The notes beneath the pieces are model-generated. The model was given only the letters and a program-made list of their open reading frames with translations, did not search any database and had not been told where the DNA came from. From Kalaharituber pfeilii (Eukaryota; Ascomycota; Pezizomycetes; Pezizales; Pezizaceae), in the NCBI GenBank assembly GCA_015179045.1, contig WHUZ01000057.1, forward strand, positions 248,001-312,000: a DNA stretch of 64,000 bases, given 5' to 3'. Made by a program: the position numbers and the translations under genes. Shown here in pieces: positions 9,475-45,074 of the stretch; within the stretch, counting starts at the first letter, position 1; each line of letters starts with the position of its first letter.

Positions 9475-10154
9475 TTTTTTTTTTTTTTTTTTTTTTATAT
9501 CATTAATCACTTACCACCCTATAGGCTATAACAATACTTTAGATACATGATAGAAAAATAAAAGGACAATAATGAAATTAAAAGGAAAGGTTTAAGGTTT
9601 CCGCGTCGTCTTGCTCCGCTCGTCCTATTCCTCTAACATCTCCACCAGCCTTCTCAACGGGTCTTCTTTCCCTTTCTTGTTCCTGGGGGGTCTCCTGACG
9701 TCCTCCTCCCCCCCGAGCCATCTCCTCCGCCATGCCCCGCATTCCTCGAGTACGTGTGTCGTTGTCTCTTCTTTCTCTCCACACCACCTGCAGTCCGGAC
9801 CGTCTGGTCTGCCTTGCCTATCTGCCACCTCCATGCGCGCAGTCCCTTTCCCCCCAGAAGGCCTGCTATCCGTCCGGTCGCACGTACTAGTCTCTCTAAT
9901 GGTCGATAGGATAGGTTCAGTCTGTTCCGTTCGCTCGCTCTCTCTCTCTTAGCTCTCTGTCTCAATCCCGCCTCCGTCACCATGTCTGGTTCGTCTTGTA
10001 ACGCTGTGCCTATCCTGGCCGCCTTGTCCGCCTCCTCGTTGCCGGGAATGCCTCTATGTCCTTTGAGCCATAATATGGCCGTGTCCCGGTCCCCTCGTTC
10101 GACTCTCCTCTCCCAGGCTCTTCGTAAGTGCACAGATGCTCCGTCGCATGTGGG
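9475..10154 (-). mobile_element. LINE type A 3' fragment (680 bp)
   Basis: The minus strand reads RNase H (ILWLKGHRGIPGNEEADKAA), the SYRPLERL linker, a C-x2-C...H-x4-C motif (CRWCGEKEETTTHVLEEC), the ORF2 end and tail A with poly(A). The perfect 14-bp duplication TTCTGGAGGAGCTT lies at 9461-9474 and 10155-10168. Confidence 0.85.
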
Positions 10155-10168
10155 TTCTGGAGGAGCTT

Positions 10169-11028
10169 CTGGGTAACCATCCAGGTTTTCAGGAAGCTTT
10201 GGGGCACCTGCTGGACCTTAACAACTCCCACTGGCACCTCTTAGCCATCTACAAGTGCTTACCTGACACTCCACTACAACCTCCGCAGACCACGTATAAC
10301 GTCACGTGACTGCGGCCGAATTTCGACTTCCAGAGCAGCTATCGACACGGCGTCAACAGCAAAAGACGCCCCTCGGCCAGAGGTCGCGGGGAACCCAGAT
10401 AACCCAAGGGGACGACCAAATTACAGAAAGCCCCATAGGAAAATGAAATCCTCCCTCCCAAAACACATTCTCCAACAGCGCCCACAAACCCCACTCTACC
10501 TTGTCGGAACATTACATCCATTGCCACCTGTTGCTATTATTATTATCTTTTCTGTTATTTTGTCGTTCCACTCATGCATTAAGCCTCGCTATTGGACTGT
10601 GTATGAATTACGCCACAATGCCAACCTTTATGTGGCTTACGCCACGGCATTCTCTGTCCAAGACACGCATCCCGTGCCTTTCTCACCTTTCCTGATATGA
10701 TATCTTCCCTGATAATTTCCTATTCAGTCATGGTTCACAAGTCACGTTATGTTATGCTTTCTCATGTATATAAACCTGCTGTTCTTGCGACTCTGAGTTC
10801 AATAGACTCAACGGTATCTCTATATCTAGCCCTCACCGTGACAAAGCAGCCTTCGCAGACCCTCCCGCTAGTATATACCTCGCCATAGCCCATAGGGCGG
10901 CACGCAAGTAATGATAAAAAAAAAAAAAAAAAAAAAAAAAATCTCGCTGCCCACGCAATCTCCCGCTGCCCACGTACTTTCTCTTACTCTTACCTTTGCC
11001 CTTATCTTCATAATGATCATACATTCGC
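10169..11028. other. Intergenic DNA with one LINE tail
   Basis: No gene was recognised. A plus-strand tail A with poly(A) sits at about 10878-10940 without an obvious duplication. A TATA-like stretch near 10770 (CATGTATATAAACC) followed by short downstream sequence would fit an LTR promoter, but no LTR ends were found. Confidence 0.35.
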
Positions 11029-11397: not shown

Positions 11398-11696
11398 GTT
11401 TGCACATTCGCTTAATTTCGTTTGCTCGTTTGCTTGTTTGCTTGCTTTTTCTTACTTCGCTTGATTGATAATCTGCTTCTTTTCTTTATCGCGATCGGTC
11501 CACTCTTTTTTCATAGGGGGGTGGGAAAATGATGTTGAAACTGACGGATTTGGCGGAAGTTATTGTGGAAGGGTCATCTTATCCGGTCACTTTGACGTCA
11601 TTGAGCGCGGTAGCGACGAGGTTTTTTTTAGCTCTTCCTGAAAGCTGCTGTTTTCATCTATTGCTTGCACTTTTTTCACTTTTTCTACTCGCTACG

Positions 11697-11779
11697 TAGT
11701 CTCGTAACCAGACGCTGACTAAGCGGAGTTTCATGCATGAATGTGCTCCGCTAGGAGCGTCTGGGAGAAAATCGCCCGC
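11697..11779 (+). repeat. Left terminal inverted repeat
   Basis: It starts TAGTCTCGTAACCAGAC and can fold: an outer stem CCAGACGC/GCGTCTGG encloses an inner stem AGCGGAG/CTCCGCT. It pairs as an imperfect inverted repeat with 21745-21824. Confidence 0.85.
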
Positions 11780-11815
11780 TTTTGATGGGCGTCTCCGCTC
11801 CGCCAAGTTGGTTGA

Positions 11816-11885
11816 TTCCGCAACTAGTTCTGGGATTTCCGCAACTAGTTTTGGGACTTCCGCAACTAGTCTCGTAACCATTCCG
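11816..11885 (+). repeat. Subterminal 21-bp repeats ending in a TIR-like motif
   Basis: TTCCGCAACTAGT recurs at 11816, 11837 and 11858, a 21-bp period. The third copy runs into TAGTCTCGTAACC (11867-11879), an internal copy of the element's terminal motif, 60 bp upstream of the DUF6589 start codon. Such arrays could bind the recombinase or the promoter machinery; that is inference. Confidence 0.7.
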
Positions 11886-11945
11886 CAACGCAGTTTTTGA
11901 TGTTTTGAGCTACCCGAAATAAACTTCGCCTGCAGCCAGGATACA

Positions 11946-14882
11946 ATGGCAGCATCCTTCTCCTCTCAATCGCTGCTAAATGAAGATGCCGGGATCAGTC
12001 CCTTATTATTGGAGCAAGCAGACAGGATCACAGAGATTATCACATTCATGGCCCAAAAAGGATTCAGCTTCAATACATTTTTAATTGCCTTTCTTGATAA
12101 CCCAACACCCCGTGTGCGCCGCAAAGCTACTCGTTTCATTGGAAAGGGAGGGGGGTTCATCAACTTCATCAGTAAGGTTCTTGAAAGCTCTAGTTTTGCC
12201 AGAGGAGCCCGAGACCCAAGCGCACAAGCCATACAAGACTTCGAAGAAGGCATCGGTGAATCCCTAGTAGATTGGTTCATCCGATTACTGTCTAAGGAAG
12301 CAAAGGTACTGAGTAAACACCCTGGAAGCCGACTAGCGCCGGTGGACTTGACGCCAGATCATGCAACAAACTTCGATATAGAGGCCATCTACAGACATCA
12401 CCAAGTGGTGGCACCTGTCCTTCACAAGGTGATTTCAGCATTATGTCTAGTCAATGATCAGAACGGAGATGCTGAGGCTGAAGGGGATGACCCTGGACTT
12501 GAAGACCCAGAGACTGTGAACTCAAAGCAGACGGCGAAGATCAGCAAGAAAGAAATAATCTCGACTGCTGTTATTGCGCAGATGATGTTCTCCCGTACAA
12601 ATCGTGCCAATGCCTTGCAGACAATGATAGGTTATTATTTAGCTGCAACTAACACCTCCAAGAATACAATATCTGTATTGAATTACCTCGGGATTAGTAT
12701 TTCATACAGCTCGATAATCAAGGCAACATCTGCATGTGCAGCCGCTAGTAGGATAGCATTGCGCGATGCAGTAGCTGCTGGAGTGGCTGTAGGAGGATTC
12801 TGGGATAACATGACCATGTCTCAGCGAGTTGGAGAAGAAACCACTACAAATCGCCATGAGTTTTTAAATTGGACAGCACGAGGTGCCTGGCAGCTGAGGC
12901 CACCTACCGCATGCCCCCTGGAATGGGAAAAAAGTAAAGGTTGGGAAGATTTGGAGAGGCTGGGGCCTGGAACCTTGACAATGTCCGAAGAGCCTTATCC
13001 GATGGATATTGATAATTACAGTACCGGCAATGACAGTGCAAGTGCGGAGAAGAAATTTCGACAATGTTTGGACCGAAGAGAGCTGTTCCGTGATGTCAAA
13101 ACAGCTGATCTAAACAATCTCGATCTACTAGAAGTATTACGACTGGAGCAGTTGGAAGCTTATTGGGTGGAAACTGCAATTGGACATGTCAGTAGGGTGC
13201 TTTGGGAATTTTGCGGAAGTGGCACTCTTAGATTCCGCAAGGTGGAGTATCCAGCTGTGCCGACGATGTATCGTATTCCGGTACATGCCAGCAAAATATG
13301 GACATTACCAACCCTAGAAATAGATGAATCTACACTAGATGGGAATGCGCAATTAATGGAAGAGTTCTTAACAAGTATAGGAGTAGAGCCGGAGAGAATG
13401 GCGGAAAGAAGCACCTTGCTAGCAGGAGACTTGATGAGCGTAAACCGAGCAAATGGAGTCATTCAACTGCGCAAGAGAGATCTGCCAGAGCACCGTATGG
13501 ATTGGGCTATCACAGTAAATGGACAACTCCATACAGGAATGACAAGTGCTTCAGCCGTTGTGGAGTGTAATGGAGGGAGATCTGATGGGAGAGACCCAAG
13601 CTCAATGAGGCGCATAGCTGCAGTTTTGGGACGCAACAAGGTATTTGATTCGAAAAACGTAAAGGATTACTCATCTATGCATCGATTCATCCATCAAACC
13701 TGGAAAGCACATGTCCTTGTGGGAGCAATTGAGCTTGCGTCACGAGAGCACGAGTCGATAGTTAACCTAGGTACGATGCAAGCATGGCTAGAGGAAGATC
13801 CAACCAGGTTAGGTGAACTGGCTCAGAAGGTGGTTCTTGAGTATATGGGGCCAAAAAAGGTGACTGGCATGCGGCGCCGAGGGGAAGAAATCGGAGTGAA
13901 GTACTGGGAAGATATGATGGAACAACTGAGAGTATCACTAGCGACTAAAGCATGTACGGGATCCGGATCAAAAAGCTCTACCTCTACGCAGGGTACGAAG
14001 GGACGAAGTGGCAGAGGTAGAGTTCCGAAGTCAAGTTCCAACCTGTTAGAAGTTTCAGAATACAGTACCATTGGAAGCTTGACAAAGGCTCGTACAGCAA
14101 TAATCAAGGAAGTGGGTAGGCGTCAGAGGGATATTTCATATGAAAATTTCTGCTTGACACTTGTGCACGGAGGAATGTATGTAGACTTCTACGACGCAGT
14201 TCGTGCTGGGGATAGTGGCCGGCTGGAACGCTCATTAGATATGCATACAATTTTCTTCTTTGGGTGTGGACGTTGGAATTATGCAAGAGAACTGTTAGAC
14301 CTTCAAGTGGATCGGAAATTATACTGGAGCGATCCTATGCGTGGAATTTGGTTGAACAACATCTTGCTGAACTTATCTGGTTCTGAGAACACGTTCATGG
14401 GTATTGATGAGGCGAATGAGTACGTGGTAAGGGAACTGAAGGATGGTTATAACCCGAAGGGTACAATCCAGTCAAAGACTCATCTAATGGACACCATTTC
14501 CCCGAACATTTTTGGGTATATGGGAGTCCGACGTGCTATACCCCAGTCTTTTGGTATCCCCTGGGGTGGAACATCGCATAGTCAAGTTGACGACCGTCGG
14601 GATATTGGCCTAATTGTTGACCTTCTCCTGACAGAGAAAGTGGCAAGGTTTGATGCTGAAGGAAGATGGTTCACCGGCACTCGAACAAACCCTGTAGAGA
14701 TACAGCCAGGAATTGATGCATTCGGTGAAGGCATCAAAGCATTGAGTAGTGGGATGCCGCTTGCAAATGCAGTGCACAGAAGAAGCCGCGGAACGATGGG
14801 GACTCAAGCATCAGATGTTGAGAATAATACGGAGGAATTTTATAATGATGGATCTAATTTGTGTGAGGGACTAGTTACATAG
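11946..14882 (+). CDS. DUF6589-type protein, candidate transposition protein
   Basis: A single uninterrupted 978-residue frame. Residues about 200-275 (RTNRANALQTMIGYYLAATN, followed by a LNYLGISISYSSI stretch) and about 280-300 (FWDNMTMSQRV) match the layout I know for fungal DUF6589 proteins. So does residues 465-560, with a WTLPTLEIDESTLDGNA stretch, LLAGDLMSVNR and a late VECNGG. The family has no established function. Conserved acidic positions (the D in FWDN, the D in AGDL, later D/E) invite comparison with an RNase H-fold DDE transposase, but I cannot prove that. It is the only plus-strand gene in the element and is flanked closely by inverted copies of the terminal motif (11867-11879 and 14986-14998). 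No intron or frameshift was seen. An alternative reading is a passenger gene. Confidence 0.8.
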   Translation: MAASFSSQSLLNEDAGISPLLLEQADRITEIITFMAQKGFSFNTFLIAFLDNPTPRVRRKATRFIGKGGGFINFISKVLESSSFARGARDPSAQAIQDFEEGIGESLVDWFIRLLSKEAKVLSKHPGSRLAPVDLTPDHATNFDIEAIYRHHQVVAPVLHKVISALCLVNDQNGDAEAEGDDPGLEDPETVNSKQTAKISKKEIISTAVIAQMMFSRTNRANALQTMIGYYLAATNTSKNTISVLNYLGISISYSSIIKATSACAAASRIALRDAVAAGVAVGGFWDNMTMSQRVGEETTTNRHEFLNWTARGAWQLRPPTACPLEWEKSKGWEDLERLGPGTLTMSEEPYPMDIDNYSTGNDSASAEKKFRQCLDRRELFRDVKTADLNNLDLLEVLRLEQLEAYWVETAIGHVSRVLWEFCGSGTLRFRKVEYPAVPTMYRIPVHASKIWTLPTLEIDESTLDGNAQLMEEFLTSIGVEPERMAERSTLLAGDLMSVNRANGVIQLRKRDLPEHRMDWAITVNGQLHTGMTSASAVVECNGGRSDGRDPSSMRRIAAVLGRNKVFDSKNVKDYSSMHRFIHQTWKAHVLVGAIELASREHESIVNLGTMQAWLEEDPTRLGELAQKVVLEYMGPKKVTGMRRRGEEIGVKYWEDMMEQLRVSLATKACTGSGSKSSTSTQGTKGRSGRGRVPKSSSNLLEVSEYSTIGSLTKARTAIIKEVGRRQRDISYENFCLTLVHGGMYVDFYDAVRAGDSGRLERSLDMHTIFFFGCGRWNYARELLDLQVDRKLYWSDPMRGIWLNNILLNLSGSENTFMGIDEANEYVVRELKDGYNPKGTIQSKTHLMDTISPNIFGYMGVRRAIPQSFGIPWGGTSHSQVDDRRDIGLIVDLLLTEKVARFDAEGRWFTGTRTNPVEIQPGIDAFGEGIKALSSGMPLANAVHRRSRGTMGTQASDVENNTEEFYNDGSNLCEGLVT

Positions 14883-14985
14883 ATTTGAACATATGAGGAC
14901 TGGGCTAACTAGTCTTTAATGTATATTGCAAAGAATAAATTTGAGCTAGGGTATATATTTTGAGAACACGGTAAAGGTTCCTCCT

Positions 14986-14998
14986 GGTTACGAGACTA
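14986..14998 (-). promoter_or_regulatory. Internal terminal-motif copy, inverted
   Basis: GGTTACGAGACTA is the exact reverse complement of the first 13 bases of the element end. With the copy at 11867-11879 it brackets the DUF6589 gene. It also supplies the helicase stop codon. A further near copy, TAGTCCCGTAACC, lies at 18798-18810 between the helicase and the next gene. Confidence 0.6.
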
Positions 14999-17900
14999 GG
15001 GGTGGTGAGGTGTCTACCCGCATGCGCTTTTGTAGAACAGTAGTTGGATCAGTGGCAGGCGAACCATCAGCATAGTAATGTTTCCCAAGTGAAGAAGTCA
15101 AGCTGGTAGTGGACGAAATTTCCCTTGTATCCGCGATATTAGCTTCAATCTCTTGTAGAATGCGGTGTTCCGAGTTCGGTTGGTGTAGCGGTGTATCATT
15201 GACGACAGAATCGGAATTAGAATTGGATAATTCCTGTGGAGTTTGTATTTGTGGTTTTGCAAGCTTTGCTAGTTTTCTCCGCTGAGCGGAAGCACGATTG
15301 AGGGCTAGTCGGTACAAGAGCTTCTCTTCGTTTTTAATATGTTGCTGGCGTGCTTCCTCAATTAATCGATGTCGTTCATTTGGATCAGTAATTTCAGTCA
15401 ATACTGGTGGGATAAACTCTTTGGTTGTGGATACAGGCCTGCCAGATTTCCGGCGATATTCTAATACCGGTGGGTTTCCACCTCCATTAGAGGGAATCGG
15501 AGTTGATAGAGGAGTATCTTGTGGACTATCTCCAGTAATATCTAGATCATTGAAGATATTTGGAATTGAGAGAGCTTGTAGATTTGGAGTACTTTGGGAA
15601 GTTGCCCATTCCGGTAAACTTTGCACATATGGGGTGTGGATTCTTGATTGAGAGTCAACCTCCATTACCACATTGGAGTTTTGTAACCGGAAATCAGAGA
15701 CAGTGGTCCGTATGATATCAAGCAAGTTAGATACATAAGGACCTAGTGGTGAGAATGAGAGATGTCGCTCTTTGGTGAGTATCTTTTGGAGACTTGCGGT
15801 GTCGTCTATGTCTGTACAGAATCTAGCAATTCTGCTGATATCATCATTTGAAAGATATGAGAGTTCATCGATGAATGAGTTCTCTGACCCCCGGTGGCCT
15901 TATGCACATATTTACGGAAGGATTCCAATGCAGCTGTCACTTCGGCTTTTAACGCCTTTGTTTACAGGCTTTTTTCTTGTTCTCGAGGGTTCTGCAGGTG
16001 GCGGTGTAAGGACCGGGATTATATCTCCAATGGTGTCGGAGTAAGACAACCCTGGTGTGAGCCTTTGATGGCAACGGTCGCAACAGCGAGGGTCTTTTCC
16101 AAGAGGCTCTGGAAATGTCACATCGTTGAAGTATTTCATAACAACCTTGCGCCGACATCCAGAGGTATTGATAAACCATAATAGTGCTCGGTCCACCTTC
16201 TTAAGAACTTCCTTTGGCGGTCGACTTGGAAGGTCTTCTTTACCCAATCCCACAAACTGAGTATCCGCTTCAACCAATGCAGGCTCTACTTCACCTTCCG
16301 CTTCTTCATTTATTTCTATTGGAACCAAGGCTAGTTCTTGACCTTCACCTGACTGAAGCACTTGCGCATCTTCGCCAGCGGTGACAACTCTACCACCGGA
16401 AGCGTCGTTGCCGATCTCCGGTAACGTTTCCGCGGGGATCGGAGTATGCGGAAGCGGAAGCTCAATCGGAGCCATGCTTTCGGCGATACCCTCATCGAAA
16501 AGTTCTATATTATGTAAAATCTCCATGACATGAGAGCCATTGTATGGTTGACTGTATAATCCCAAACCAGGGCCTGCAACCTTACTGAGGTTGACATCTA
16601 TCGCAGCATTATAATAGAGGATCGCAGCACCTTGAATTTCCGGGTTTCGAGCACATCTGCCAGCTCTCTGGATAAATCCAGGCAGGTTCAAATGAGAAGG
16701 AATCGTCCACTGGATTACGACTTCAATGTCCTCCACGTCTAGTCCCATTCCTGCAGCCTCGGTACACACTAGAACACGAGTATTCTTTTTGCGCCGGATT
16801 AGGGAATCCTTGAAATTCAACATGGTTGCTTCTCTGCGTTGTTCACTTAATATGGTCGAATAGTCCATTATGACTTCTCTTCCTTGCAATACCGGTGCGA
16901 GGCGACGCTCTAGTTGGTCTACTACACTGCAGACCGTTTGCCGGGAATCAATAAATATCATGGTTTTGCGAATGCATCCGGGGTCAGAGCAGTTCATCGG
17001 AATTACAGACTCTAATTCCTTTCGCAACTTGATGTTCCCGTGTGCAATTGGAATCGCAGTTAAAAAGACATTAGGTCTATCCATTGTATTTTGAATCAAT
17101 GAAGTGGGGGAGTGAAGGCTGAGGCCCTTATGTATAAACCTCATTGCGCGCCTCGACAATGTGGCAGATAGACAGAGTACGGGGGCCTTGGGAAAAAAGG
17201 TACGGACGACTCCAATGTGCGCGTATGCTGTACGGAATTCCCGCCTGAAGCAGTTGATTAGCCTTGTTTCGGGAATCGTCTTTCCGCCGTGCCAGAAGCC
17301 AAAGCCGCTGCGCATTCCGCCATGCCAGAAGCCAAAGCCGCATGTCAACCAGACTAAGCCGCATGTTGGCTTTGCAGGAATGCCAAAGCCGCTGCGCATT
17401 CCGCCATGCTGGAAGCCAAAGCCGCATGTTGGCTTGACAGCAATGCCAAAGCCGCTGCGCATTCCGCCATGCCAGAAGCCAAAGCCGCATGTTGGCTTGA
17501 CAGCAATGCCAAAGCCGCTGCGCATTCCGCCATGCTGGAAGCCAAAGCCGCATGTTGGCTTGTCAGGAATGCCAAACCACCGCCATTTCCGCAATCAAAC
17601 GGAGCTGGGACTTACCAAGTGTAACATAAATGGGCCTCATCAACCACAATACATGTCAACTTTTCCACAAATTTGGAACTCTTTGCCCCGCGTCGTGCAC
17701 CTTTGCACTTTATGCCTAACAGCTTTTGAAAGCTCTTATCCCGCGCATTGATAAACTCTGGACCAACCATTACAACATTGTATTCTCCGTTCGCTGCTCG
17801 TTCAACAAGTTTTCGATCGTCACGCATGGTGCGTTTCGTCAGACGACAGGAACTGATTCCAACCCGCTCATTGCTTTCGCATTGGTCCTTCATCAATGAT

Positions 17901-18351
17901 AATAAAGGAGAAATTACCAATATTGTCCCATTATTGCTAATCGCAATGCCTTGGTAGCACATAGTCTTTCCGCTACCTGTAGCTGTTGTTACGATAGTAT
18001 CATGTCCTCCGAGGACTTCGGATGCTGCGATGGTCTGCCAAGGGCGTTCCGTCCATGACCTTTGATGAGCCTCCATCCTTTCAGCTACTTTCTTCCTCAC
18101 TTTGCGCGTAAGTGCATTATCCCGATGATAAATTGTTATAAATCGCCCGCAGGAGCTCAGCTTGTCCTCTTGCAGGTATTGTGCAGTGTTTTCCCCAAGG
18201 CTTTGCGAAACTGTGTCCGCATCCTCATCTTGAACCTCTATGTCTTGTCCATTCTCAACCCCAGTACCCTGCTATATGATTAATTAACCTTCATCTATTA
18301 CAATCATGTATTCTCTGAACTTACCATACTGTTTTGCTCAAACGTTGACAT
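14988..18351 (-). CDS. RecQ-family DNA helicase (frameshifted copy)
   Basis: Exons: 18325-18351, about 17616-18271, and 17244 down to 14988 (about 980 residues). Introns have GTAAGT/GTAAGTT donors and a CTAATC...CTTCAG acceptor. Splicing across 17245-17615 joins VVDEAHLCYTW to REFRTAY, the normal RecQ order. Motif I is TATGSGKT, Ia ISPLLSLMKDQ, II DEAH, III LSATL, IV MIFIDSRQ, V VLVCTEAAGMGLD and VI FIQRAGRCAR. A zinc-binding module typical of RecQ follows (GCRRKVVMKYF...CCDRC). The low-complexity C-terminus (14988-15860) is in the same frame as the helicase core. However, 15870-15975 needs two compensating one-base shifts (an extra A near AACAAAGG, one G missing from a G5 run). Such a helicase could unwind DNA for excision or replication of the element. 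Either the copy is damaged or the assembly has homopolymer errors. Confidence 0.8.
17245..17615 (-). repeat. 63-bp minisatellite inside the helicase intron
   Basis: The 371-bp intron consists largely of a tandem repeat of 63 bp, with full units at 17407-17469 and 17470-17532 and partial or variant units on both sides (about 17290-17406 and 17533-17575). Each unit contains AAGCCAAAGCCGCATGTTGG and CGCTGCGCATTCCGCC. Because 63 is divisible by 3, several frames stay open across it and give spurious long ORFs. The splice sites lie outside the array. Confidence 0.85.
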
Positions 18352-19209
18352 TCTATCGTGGCCGAATAAGCTTGTATTTGTCCCACTGACTTTGTTTTGG
18401 TGTTGTTTCCGTTGCTACGCACGACCCTTCAACTCCGAAACCTGAAGATGCCTTTCCGTCAAGCTTTTGGGTGCGGATTGGTGAATCCGCATTATAGCTC
18501 TCATATGAATCGACAATGCAACTTCACTCCCCAACGTTCCATCCGTCGAAATTAAATGTATTACTATTTCATCCATAAGCCTCTGACGACATAAGAATTA
18601 TTACATTCTTTCTCATCACTGGACGCCATATGAAGATGTGGTACCGCCAGATTATCTTTCCGACCGGAATTACTAGTTTGTAGTGGATACAACTCCGTAT
18701 GCCACTGAATTGTTGATGTCTTATATCATCTTTCAGATTACCGGATCATTCATCACTATGAGGCATGTCATTCCACTCTAAAACTCAGGCTAACAGCTAG
18801 TCCCGTAACCAGACTAGATTTAGGCTAACATCCTGGTCTCAAAGAGGCTACCGGACCGGCCCTCGGCTCCTTTCAGCCACCACTCTAATCCATCCTTAAT
18901 GACGCCATAGTGGATAGAGCTCCTCATTAATGTGCCTCAAGTTGCCATGATGATATATTATTTTGAATTTCAAAGCTAATTCCTATCATTACATACCCAA
19001 ACAAGCTTCTCTATTGCCCAATCAAGCTAACAAGATCACCCGAGATTAAATTCCTGACCCTCTGATACCATAGTAATCGTAAGGCAACAACCAATCCGCA
19101 GAGAACCCAATTTCGGAACCAAGGAAACTGTAGTCGATCCCCAATCACAATGGGATTACAATAGACGATATACCTGCTCACCCAAGTATGCCTTTTACAT
19201 TCCGGAAGC
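18352..19209. other. Non-coding spacer within the 10-kb element
   Basis: No coding frame was convincing. It contains the palindromic motif CTAGTCCCGTAACCAGACTAG-like sequence at 18797-18817 (first 13 bases TAGTCCCGTAACC), a near copy of the element terminus. Confidence 0.5.
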
Positions 19210-21462
19210 TTACATCGACTCAGCTTCAGGAATCTCTCTTCCTCCGAAAGCTCTTGCATCATGCATCTCTCCCGTAGCACGTCGAACCTGAAGATTAGTA
19301 TCATCGAGGAAGCTCTTGACACTTTCTCCAAGGTTCAATTGCGAGGCACGAGCCTGAGCATTCAGATCCAGAGATACCGAGCGCCTCCTAGTCTTTGCAG
19401 GAGTCTCCACTGCATATTCCATATCAAACACGTTCTCAACAGTCCTAGAAGAAGGTGTACTTGCTCCCATTGGTACTGCTCCTGAGGATGGCGGAATGGC
19501 CTCCCGATTATAGAAGTCTGTGAAGTCGATTTCGCGGCGTCTATTTGCTGCATATTTCTCTGCCCCTCCGCGACTCGTGGATTGGTAGTCCTTACTAACC
19601 TGGCTACTGCCATGCGAAGAGGACGCATATTGGCTAGCATAATGTTGAGACGAGTTAGGCGCCGGCGTTCCCATTGTTTTTTTTACCGCTAACATCTCAT
19701 CAGCTGCATCCTGATATTTCTCCACTGCAAGTTGCATCGCCACTTGCTTTCTTAGTCCCTCTTCCCTCAACTTGACCAAGGTTGCAATTTGATCTTTAAT
19801 TCTCTTTTGACGTTCTTCGATCAGGAACAAGGCTTCATTGCCCTGTTGATATGCCTGGCATGCAAGCCTTATTGTCATGTCAATTTTACCAGCAATTCCT
19901 GTTTTTGCCCAATGAATCGCTTCATCCGTCAAATACATTGCCTCGCGGTTTGGTGGTGGTGCCACTTTCCTAATGATTTCTTCCACCTCCGCGATCTCCT
20001 GATCCGCAGCATTTTTGATCCCTGCATAATCCTCCATGCTCAAACCTTCCCCTCCTTCGAATTTTGATTCTGCCCCCACAACATAGACGTAGACTTATCA
20101 AACTCGCTGCCAGGCTCATTCCAATCATATTTGGAAATCCGAATGCTTCTTTTCCCGGTCCTCTTTCTAGCAGCAATCCCTTGATGGATCTCAATCTGCG
20201 GTTGAACCATCTTGATTTTTTTCTTCATTGGAGTCCTCATTTCATCATCTTCATTACTGTCATCCCCATGATGAACCTCAAGCTGACTGTGCATTCTAGG
20301 GTATTCACGTTCGTCGCCAGAAGACTCCACCTCAATTGCCTCAACCTCTACTTCTGACTCCGATGAGATCTCAGATTCTGACTCTACCCCACTTCCCTCA
20401 CCACCCTCTTGTGGGACTTCCACGAGCCTCTTCATCAAAGATTTGAAAACTTCATCTGTGACGCTTCTGGGGATCCTTTCAGGGTATTCACCCCACTCCC
20501 CGGTACGCGGTCTTCCTTCTTTGACCAAATTTGGCATCAATGATGCTGGGGAGTCCAAGTCCGAAGAATACCAGAAATCTCTTTGACGACTGGTCACCGA
20601 CATTCCCCGTTGCGCAACTGGCGCTTTGGTTAGATGGTTAATATATGTGGCAATTAGGACATGGGTTGTTGAGCGTAAATGATCATGGAAGAACCGGGTG
20701 AAAGATGTGTTCCATGCAGAAAGCTGAAAATATTCTACCGGAATTGCAAAAGTACAGCACTTCCAGACTGCACCGACTTCTGCGGGCGTGAGTTGCAGCC
20801 ATTCTCCAACCTCCTCGGCCGTGATCTTAGGCAATGCCCTCTTGGTTGTTCTGCTCCTATCCCATACAATTAGTCCTTTTGTTCAATATGAACAATGATT
20901 AGGGAATAGCTTACCTTATCTCTGCAGCAGCCTCTCCATGCAGCCTCCCGGAATTTGTATTGAGCCAAGCTTTCGCTAAGAATTCATGTGCATCATGAGC
21001 ATTGTCCTGTAGCTCTTTTAGAATGACTTTCAGAGTGACTATTTCTTTGGACGCTACGATTACTCCGGACTTCTGTGGCTGAATGGCATTGATAATGTCC
21101 CGAATAACTTTCTCATTAAAATGTCTAAATCGGATAAACATAATGGCCATCAGGAACCGGGCCTTCGACCTCCAATCATCTATGGTCTTAGAGGCCTGCA
21201 ATCCAAATTTGAAGCGCTCCGGAATATAACTCTCAATGTCCTTAATATAGTACTGTCCTTTGTTTTTCTCCAGCTTATGAGCTTCGATTGACAAATCCTC
21301 ATGTTTACGTTTTGTTGGCTTTGTAGATACTTGCAGTTGTTTGTTCTCTTCTGTCAGATCCTGAAGGCTCGCCTGACGAGTGACTCTCTTTACTGTACGA
21401 CTGTTTTTTTTTGGTACCTCGGAGGACTTGGACGATGGAAGCTCTTGCTCAGAGTCTGACAT
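19210..21462 (-). CDS. Unknown protein of the 10-kb element
   Basis: ATG at 21462 (MSDSEQELPSS). Exon 1 runs to 20915 and an intron at 20857-20914 (GTAAGC...GGATAG) is followed by exon 2, giving ...AAAEIR-SRTTKRALPKITAEEV. Exon 2 stays open to near 20080. A one-base shift at a G5 run then continues the frame as AESKFEGGEGLSMEDY to 19210. Total about 730 residues. Visible parts are a lysine/serine-rich N-terminus, a central globular region with YYIKDIESYIPERFKFGLQ and EEVGEWLQLTPAEVGAVWKC, an acidic serine/glutamate tract, a basic stretch, and a C-terminal region with a likely coiled coil (IEERQKRIKDQIATLVKLRE). I recognise no family. It may be a DNA-binding or structural partner of the helicase, which is inference. 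Without the frameshift it would be two overlapping products. Confidence 0.6.
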
Positions 21463-21744
21463 TGTGCCAGTAAACAATCGTTGAATCTCGTTGCAGGGGT
21501 CCTCGTTGCAGGGGTCCAGTTGGCTAGCACGAAGCGGGAATAAATAAAGAAAGAGTGAAACAAGTCAAAAGGGACCAGGATTAGGACTGAAACCGCTCAA
21601 TTAGGTTTGGTGTTGAGGAGTTGAAGATACGCAAACATGCGGTACAGATGTAGTGGTAGGAAGGGTAACACGGAAGCTAATCATAACACAGCGGAATGGC
21701 CAAGCCGACGAGCAATCCACCAGCAAAAGTTGGTGCTAGCAATT

Positions 21745-21824
21745 GCGGGAGATAATCTCCCAGACGCTCCTAGCGTCGCCACTCCAATTTCATGCGACGC
21801 TGACTAAGTCTGGTTACGAGACTA
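21745..21824 (-). repeat. Right terminal inverted repeat
   Basis: Read inward it starts TAGTCTCGTAACCAGAC and contains GCTAGGAGCGTCTGGGAGA. Its inner stem is AGCGTCGC/GCGACGCT, unlike the left end in sequence but alike in pairing. Confidence 0.85.
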
Positions 21825-21833
21825 CTCGCTACG

Positions 21834-44489: not shown

Positions 44490-45074
44490 GTAAATCTGTA
44501 AAAAATTCAAATACCCTAATAAAAGCAGTTATAGAATGTGCTGTAGGTATAAGTGCTAGCAGAAGGTACGGGGTAGTGATGCTTGTGCTATCCTACAATA
44601 TTCGCTGACCTCAATATTAGGCAGCGATGTTGCCACAATGAAATTCACGGTTATGAGGATGGGTTGTTGAGTTAATGGAATGGCTGAAGCAGCCACGGTA
44701 GCAACAACAAATGTCAATTCCCTGCAATTACTCTCAATTGCACACAAGCACGATGCATCATAATTTGACAAGCAAGAATGGCTTCGGGGAGGAAATCTCA
44801 CTAAATTTCATGCAACTGAGTCTCATTGGTACAAACCCCTACCTATTTTTACACGAGTACATGCGAGCCCGGGGAAACAATTGCAACTTTTGTTTAGTGT
44901 ATAAAATGCCCCTGCTGAAGCAAGGTCACCCTTGTTCTCGTACCCAGACTACAGTCAGACCTTGCTATTCCGCACCCCACAATCTCGAACCGCGATCCAT
45001 GTCACTACGAGACCCCTTCCACCTTAACACATACTAAGTGTGCCCCCTGCTACGTTACATCAACCACACGAAGC
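44490..45074. other. Intergenic DNA upstream of the NLR gene
   Basis: No gene recognised. The NLR promoter and 5' UTR should lie here. A rightward LINE begins near 45075. Confidence 0.4.

Follow-up and report, generated by a model that had tools for sequence, protein, structure and literature searches.

Which enzyme moves a 10,128-bp unit that carries a gene of the unnamed Pfam family DUF6589, a RecQ-like helicase gene, and a third gene between inverted ends, and does such a unit represent a new class of DNA transposon? The unit lies in the window, the whole stretch of 64,000 nucleotides that was analysed, at positions 248001–312000 of contig C314 in the 78-Mb genome of the desert truffle Kalaharituber pfeilii (Pezizales, Ascomycota). 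A first-pass annotation made from the sequence alone had proposed a new class, with the DUF6589 protein as the mobilising enzyme and the helicase as its partner. Our joint explanation of the data is a cut-and-paste transposon that most likely belongs to a lineage already published, AcademH, with DUF6589 as a transposase of the DDE type and with excision by cuts staggered by about 15 nt (probability about 0.72).

The unit is a transposable element with the boundaries given in Table 1; the 9-bp duplication and the 17-bp inverted repeats proposed for its ends proved exact to the base, and the three genes are present inside it as open frames and Pfam matches. The inverted likeness of the two ends extends over about 80 bp (63 of 85 columns, 74%). 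The duplicated 9-mer was found in the window at the two element-flanking positions only, with no further copy on either strand. When a 9-bp repeat with inverted ends matching in at least 13 of 14 positions and spaced 3–14 kb was sought, one such structure was found in the window and none in 20 shuffled windows. The 13-bp terminus TAGTCTCGTAACC has 944 copies in the genome and its reversed control has 2, an excess far beyond chance.

The flanks joined through one copy of the duplication matched 14 further genomic places, each in one piece across the junction and with 67–77% identity. The element thus sits in an old repeat, and these matches uphold the boundaries of the insertion. Two of these places were read (the remaining 12 are known as matches only). 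Both were continuous and empty: the element was absent, a single related site was present, and the alignment had a gap of 4 bp within the duplication. They confirm the boundaries, for which the first-pass annotation had suggested this comparison.

The 978-aa frame matched Pfam family PF20231 (DUF6589) with an E-value of 9.8e-75 and 252 bits (cut-off 27). Its predicted structure has an RNase H-type fold with a conserved D-D-E triad (D287, D495, and E733) and a predicted helical insertion ahead of the catalytic Glu. Comparison with RNase H-fold transposases, as had been advised, gave Hermes and the P element as the best fold matches; Foldseek against the PDB, taken alone, yielded no significant match for the model. 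The predicted fold and triad support DUF6589 as the best candidate for the mobilising enzyme, and the protein is likely the transposase of the element. Among the DUF6589 matches listed from protein databases were Kalaharituber proteins (four DUF6589 proteins carry the name Kalaharituber pfeilii) as well as P0003, P0005, and P0008–P0013 (sources lgn, ena, and jgi). An unnamed Pfam family thereby gains a likely active site and the fold of a transposase, and DUF6589 proteins can probably be read as transposases.

The genome search with PF20231 gave 34 matches, grouped by hand into 23 loci (C235 and C24 being below the family cut-off), and the search with the helicase gave 54 matches at 42 loci. 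A helicase match lay within 10 kb of 15 of the 23 DUF6589 loci, and at all 15 the two genes were convergent, in the tail-to-tail arrangement of the window; the chance of a helicase match near one DUF6589 locus is about 1%. Ten paralogous DUF6589 loci were read. Like ends with perfect 9-bp duplications were present at five of them, and the third gene was recognisable at six (C296, C35, C298, C327, C2, and C304). Overall, six elements besides the window's own carry individual perfect 9-bp duplications (Table 1). The scan found no acceptable ends with duplications at C35, C57, C352, C223, and C335; the end candidates rejected were satellite repeats at C352 and, at C35, sequences with only a 10/14 match and 8-bp repeats. 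The absence of this gene set from every other locus, which the first-pass annotation had named as fatal to its proposal, did not occur: the same set recurs inside like ends within this genome. Between the C296 element and that of the window, the left ends were about 89% identical, the right ends 75%, and the aligned inner DNA 63–72%. The ends are more alike than the inner DNA; hence the ends of the subfamilies stay compatible or get exchanged.

Helicase copies with no DUF6589 match within 10 kb were found at C336, C298:301855, C43, C146, and C296:139134. Their left ends were near-identical and their helicases 94–97% identical. Two of them were read, the copies at C336 (L059) and C298:301855 (L060). 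The helicase of L060 had a non-synonymous divergence (dN) of 0.014 and a synonymous divergence (dS) of 0.033; L059 contains a stop codon, and its right end was not found. Derivatives lacking DUF6589 would require moving in trans.

The terminus copies were read in a non-random sample, the first 50 listed of the 944, which come from contigs C1 and C2 only (L001–L008 and L061–L100). In this sample, 32 copies were inserts of 11–30 bp with one end between 9-bp duplications, which agreed in 8 or 9 of the 9 bases (9/9 in 19 inserts). Swapping the left 9-mers among sites gave 0.40% (389/97,855). Insert lengths were 11, 13, 14 (six inserts), 15 (eleven), 16, 17, 19 (three), 25 (six), and 30 bp (two), so that the 14–15 bp class comprises 17 of the 32. 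Four other copies formed two short inverted-end elements of 78 bp (duplication 8/9) and 103 bp (9/9). The remaining 14 had no such duplication; among them, L076 reached 7/9 at 25 bp, and L068 terminated an inverted-end element about 128 bp long. Since the 13-base query could miss shorter scars, prefixes of the terminus were counted genome-wide: 1,251 copies at 11 bases (control 64), 944 at 13 (2), 777 at 15 (0), and 342 at 17 (0). About a fifth to a quarter of the copies was lost per two bases up to base 15, and over half thereafter, which suggests a break just after base 15; subfamily differences at bases 16–17 could contribute.

The single-end inserts are best read as excision scars from a cut about 15 nt inside the end. 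The 25-bp inserts, with the exception of one diverged copy (L081), finish in GACTA (five of six), a sequence that corresponds to bases 21–25 of the left end and also to the final five bases of the right end. Of the three 19-bp inserts, two follow the same logic via AGAC and one (L005) consists of 15 bp plus filler; L062 consists of 14 bp plus filler. Such microhomology and filler bases are marks of end joining. Alternatively, the inserts might be abortive one-ended insertions or an integrated terminus fragment: each retains one end only, and the two 19-bp forms and five of the six 25-bp forms, which start with TAGTC and finish with GACTA, resemble minimal inverted-end units. We regard this as quite improbable, since a DDE enzyme should require a pair of ends to make a 9-bp duplication, the 25- and 19-bp forms are the expected products of GACTA/AGAC microhomology joining between native ends, and two inserts (L005 and L062) hold filler bases. 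Two sites of the sample had a particular structure. At L098 (G000:C2:713522-713621), two identical 15-bp ends stand in tandem, each flanked by the 9-mer GAATGCGGC, either because the event happened twice at this site or because 24 bp were duplicated. At L069 (G000:C1:1193560-1193880), a 15-bp scar lies within a terminus-like stretch of a second family, TGTTCTCGTGCC, and the duplication belongs to that stretch.

All eight ends that were folded as single-stranded DNA (left and right of the window element, C296 left, C2 left and right, C298/C327 type, and C304 left and right) formed a hairpin with the main stem starting from base 11 or 12, CCAG paired with CTGG, and z from −2.2 to −6.8. In four of the eight, a few bases of the outer tail also paired. 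This putative hairpin may instead be a pair of binding sites. Hairpin-forming ends also raise the question of whether the scars arose by replication slippage or recombination, independently of the transposase. Slippage or recombination at such ends is very improbable: in 32 of the 50 copies, the far breakpoint coincides with the 9-bp duplication, where a random deletion would not halt, and in the 15-bp class the final retained base and the final base of the far end are not the same, which leaves no homology for joining.

The ends, the 9-bp duplications, the recurring three-gene layout, and the empty sites are evident from the sequences, and they can be accommodated in one scheme. The predicted DUF6589 transposase would cut the element ends and join them to target strands 9 bp apart. 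At excision, one strand would be cut at the exact end and its complement about 15 nt within the repeat, so as to leave long single-stranded tails, and the host would often join one tail to the opposite flank, giving one 14–15 bp end between two copies of the duplication. The main scar class is exactly what would result if a 14–15-nt tail were joined to the opposite, recessed flank. The RecQ-family helicase probably acts on the tails and the hairpin ends, by opening or processing them, or else aids gap repair.

Several observations weigh against this scheme. The 25- and 30-bp inserts are longer than a 15-nt tail. The second terminus family fell smoothly in prefix counts (661, 550, and 441 at 13, 15, and 17 bases), with no breakpoint between 15 and 17, and yielded one 33-bp candidate scar with a duplication of 7/9; the stagger of about 15 nt is therefore hypothesised for one terminus family only. 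P-element joints, in the excerpted descriptions, keep bases of both sides, whereas the inserts here keep those of one side. In the C304 element, the duplications and ends are perfect and both DUF6589 and the third gene are present, with no helicase match. Because of this one element, the helicase may not be strictly required, and its proposed role as a partner is upheld by its presence near 15 of the 23 DUF6589 loci and weakened by C304. C304 also speaks for the helicase and the third gene being passengers of an element mobilised by DUF6589 alone. That is rather doubtful, as the helicase is kept in convergent orientation at the 15 loci, with matches down to about 30% identity, and copies with the helicase and without DUF6589 have also spread.

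The P element itself is not known to carry a helicase. The proposed long stagger inside the inverted repeat would resemble that of the P element; scar lengths and prefix counts fit about 15 nt in the first terminus family and do not in the second. According to the excerpts of the papers cited here by PMC number, P transposase cuts 17 bp inside the repeat and leaves 17-nt 3' tails (PMC7776569); these tails are non-complementary, and alternative end joining, frequently using microhomology, is their main route of repair (PMC2895639). The Bloom helicase is named in the repair of the P-element gap (PMC7776569). By analogy, a RecQ enzyme of the element's own acting on long tails would be a natural parallel to the Bloom helicase at P-element breaks. 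We tentatively consider it possible that a P-like cut staggered by about 15 nt is made, with the element's RecQ doing Bloom's job on the tails or hairpins and hundreds of scars left as a fossil record. If so, the helicase would let both the donor gap and the new insertion be completed.

The predicted active site and the scars are the fresh content of this analysis. Scars of this kind were not found in the literature searched, which did not include the main AcademH paper, and they therefore cannot be called unpublished. If these inserts are indeed excision scars, the family of 944 exact terminus copies is a dense record of excision and a handle on how the superfamily cuts DNA, and the scars would offer a reason for such elements to carry a RecQ helicase. 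They also call for caution, since a tiny insert of an end plus a duplication need not be a miniature element and can be a scar of excision.

The helicase matched the Pfam families DEAD and Helicase_C above their cut-offs, split over two frames. RecQ was the top NCBIfam family for each half, both under that family's full-length cut-off, and the seven best PDB matches of the C-terminal half were all to WRN, short and modest (best E-value 1.4e-5). The residues GSGKT, DEAH, SAT, FIDSR, TEAAGMGLD, QRAGRCAR, and a CCDRC cluster are present; we take them to be the helicase motifs named in Table 1. RecQ_Zn_bind scored 23.3 bits against a cut-off of 25, i.e., 1.7 bits short, and the description as a true RecQ is thus fair, though not strict. 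Matches of L060 to the 63-bp minisatellite point to another unit number, and the copies seem to differ. The third gene had no Pfam match above cut-off, and its structure model was poor (predicted local distance difference test score 56.1, predicted template modelling score 0.55), so that no reading was drawn from it; a DNA-binding or complex-building accessory role is only a guess.

The part repeated around the 9-mer TTCCGCAAC is missing from L060 and present in L059. These repeats resemble stacked scars but were not counted as such, as 21-bp (9 + 12) tandem repeats are common in these elements: they occur at about 1362–2570 in L060, at about 1517–1950 and 4483–4602 in L059, and from 9458 in L053. 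In L060, and partly in L059, they occupy the stretch standing in for DUF6589. Perhaps they are putative transposase-binding arrays. Elsewhere in the window, positions 44933–44953 hold an isolated second-family terminus, TGTTCTCGTACCCAGACTACA, beside which no 9-bp duplication was found, and an open frame on the minus strand at 9654–10217 has an RNase H-like motif seen by eye, GHRGIPGNEEADKAA, and is probably a retroelement piece.

Table 1. Features of the window element and of paralogous elements with perfect 9-bp duplications (positions refer to the window unless a contig is named).
Feature	Position	Strand	Basis or remark
Left 9-bp target site duplication CTCGCTACG	11688..11696	.	Sequence; single related site at two empty paralogous sites
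Whole element, 10,128 bp	11697..21824	.	Target site duplications, inverted ends, shuffle control
Left terminal inverted repeat, 17 bp perfect (~80 bp imperfect)	11697..11713	+	Alignment of ends
Hairpin-forming part of left end, CCAG paired with CTGG, after first 11 nt (putative)	11708..11764	+	z −6.78, single-stranded DNA folding
Four copies of 9-mer TTCCGCAAC, spacers 12, 12, and 14 bp; 14-bp spacer is the terminus TAGTCTCGTAACCA	11816..11889	+	Sequence
DUF6589 gene, 978-aa open frame, predicted DDE transposase	11946..14882	+	Pfam, fold prediction
Internal copy of 15-bp terminus	14984..14998	-	Sequence; 9-bp duplication not found beside it
303-aa open frame downstream of helicase	14988..15899	-	Short matches to helicase-gene frames of other elements
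RecQ-family helicase, C-terminal half (motifs III–VI, Cys-rich zinc module)	15912..17594	-	Pfam, PDB matches, motifs, NCBIfam
63-bp minisatellite in helicase frame, between motifs II and III	17265..17576	-	Repeat seen in sequence
RecQ-family helicase, N-terminal half (GSGKT, DEAH)	17612..18271	-	Pfam, motifs, NCBIfam
Third gene, at least three open pieces (19210-20094, 20040-20882, 20911-21564)	19210..21564	-	Open frames; paralogues
Right terminal inverted repeat, 17 bp perfect	21808..21824	-	Alignment of ends
Right 9-bp target site duplication CTCGCTACG	21825..21833	.	Sequence
C296 element, 9,616 bp	C296, 305408-315023		Duplication GCGGAATAA
C2 element, 9,301 bp	C2		Duplication TGGCGAGGT
C298 element, 10,118 bp	C298		Duplication GTCATAGCC
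C327 element, 9,685 bp	C327		Duplication GTGTGGTAA
C304 element, 6,747 bp	C304		Duplication TAGATCAGG
C298:301855 copy (L060), 7,082 bp	C298:301855		Duplication CCCTCAGGA; DUF6589 and most of third gene lost

The place of the element among known transposons was assessed by its duplications, ends, and genes. Starship and Crypton elements use a tyrosine recombinase, for which no Pfam match was obtained in the seven open frames scanned. The nuclease of AcademX is XPG-like, and no Pfam match to such a nuclease was obtained in the same frames. The hAT elements, to which Hermes belongs, make 8-bp duplications against 9 bp here, and no hAT Pfam family was matched. Kolobok elements duplicate TTAA, and KolobokH was rejected since the 9-bp duplications here are of varied sequence. 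Helitrons have the helicase in common with the present element but are not known to have duplications or inverted ends, both of which it has; the HUH nuclease that excerpted descriptions ascribe to Helitrons had no match in the frames scanned. P-element duplications are given as 8 bp (PMC2895639), in contrast to 9 bp here, and the DUF6589 gene had no match to THAP. KolobokH comprises fungal transposons with a RecQ helicase (PMC9587614) and thus shares both the helicase and the fungal host.

AcademH (Kojima, 2020, doi 10.1186/s13100-020-00211-1) is a published helicase-encoding lineage of the Academ superfamily, taken here from excerpts of citing papers (PMC10799480, PMC10045372). In these, its duplications are 9 or 10 bp and those of AcademX 3 or 4 bp, a difference tied to helicase vs. 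nuclease (PMC10045372, 2023); AcademX, although of the same superfamily, therefore differs from the 9 bp seen here. AcademH is described as low-copy in Basidiomycota, Ascomycota, and Mucoromycota (PMC10799480, 2024), and widespread insertions of putative non-autonomous Academ elements are reported from Marasmius oreades (PMC8290104). Since a helicase-encoding lineage with duplications of 9–10 bp in Ascomycota had already been published, the proposal of a new class was abandoned. DUF6589 elements might still form a superfamily separate from Academ that resembles AcademH in helicase and duplication length by convergence: KolobokH also took up a RecQ helicase (PMC9587614), the name DUF6589 was not found in the literature searched, and the likeness to AcademH comes from its published description rather than from a transposase comparison. 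We consider such a separate superfamily unlikely, as the duplications, the helicase, and the fungal host fit that description. AcademH has an Academ-type DDD/E transposase; for DUF6589, a DDE nature as such is supported by the predicted fold and triad. The perfect 9-bp duplications of the window element and six others fall within the 9 or 10 bp given for AcademH, a helicase is encoded (near 15 of the 23 DUF6589 loci, C304 being without a match), and the host is an ascomycete; matched by description and not by transposase alignment, the element is most likely a member of AcademH.
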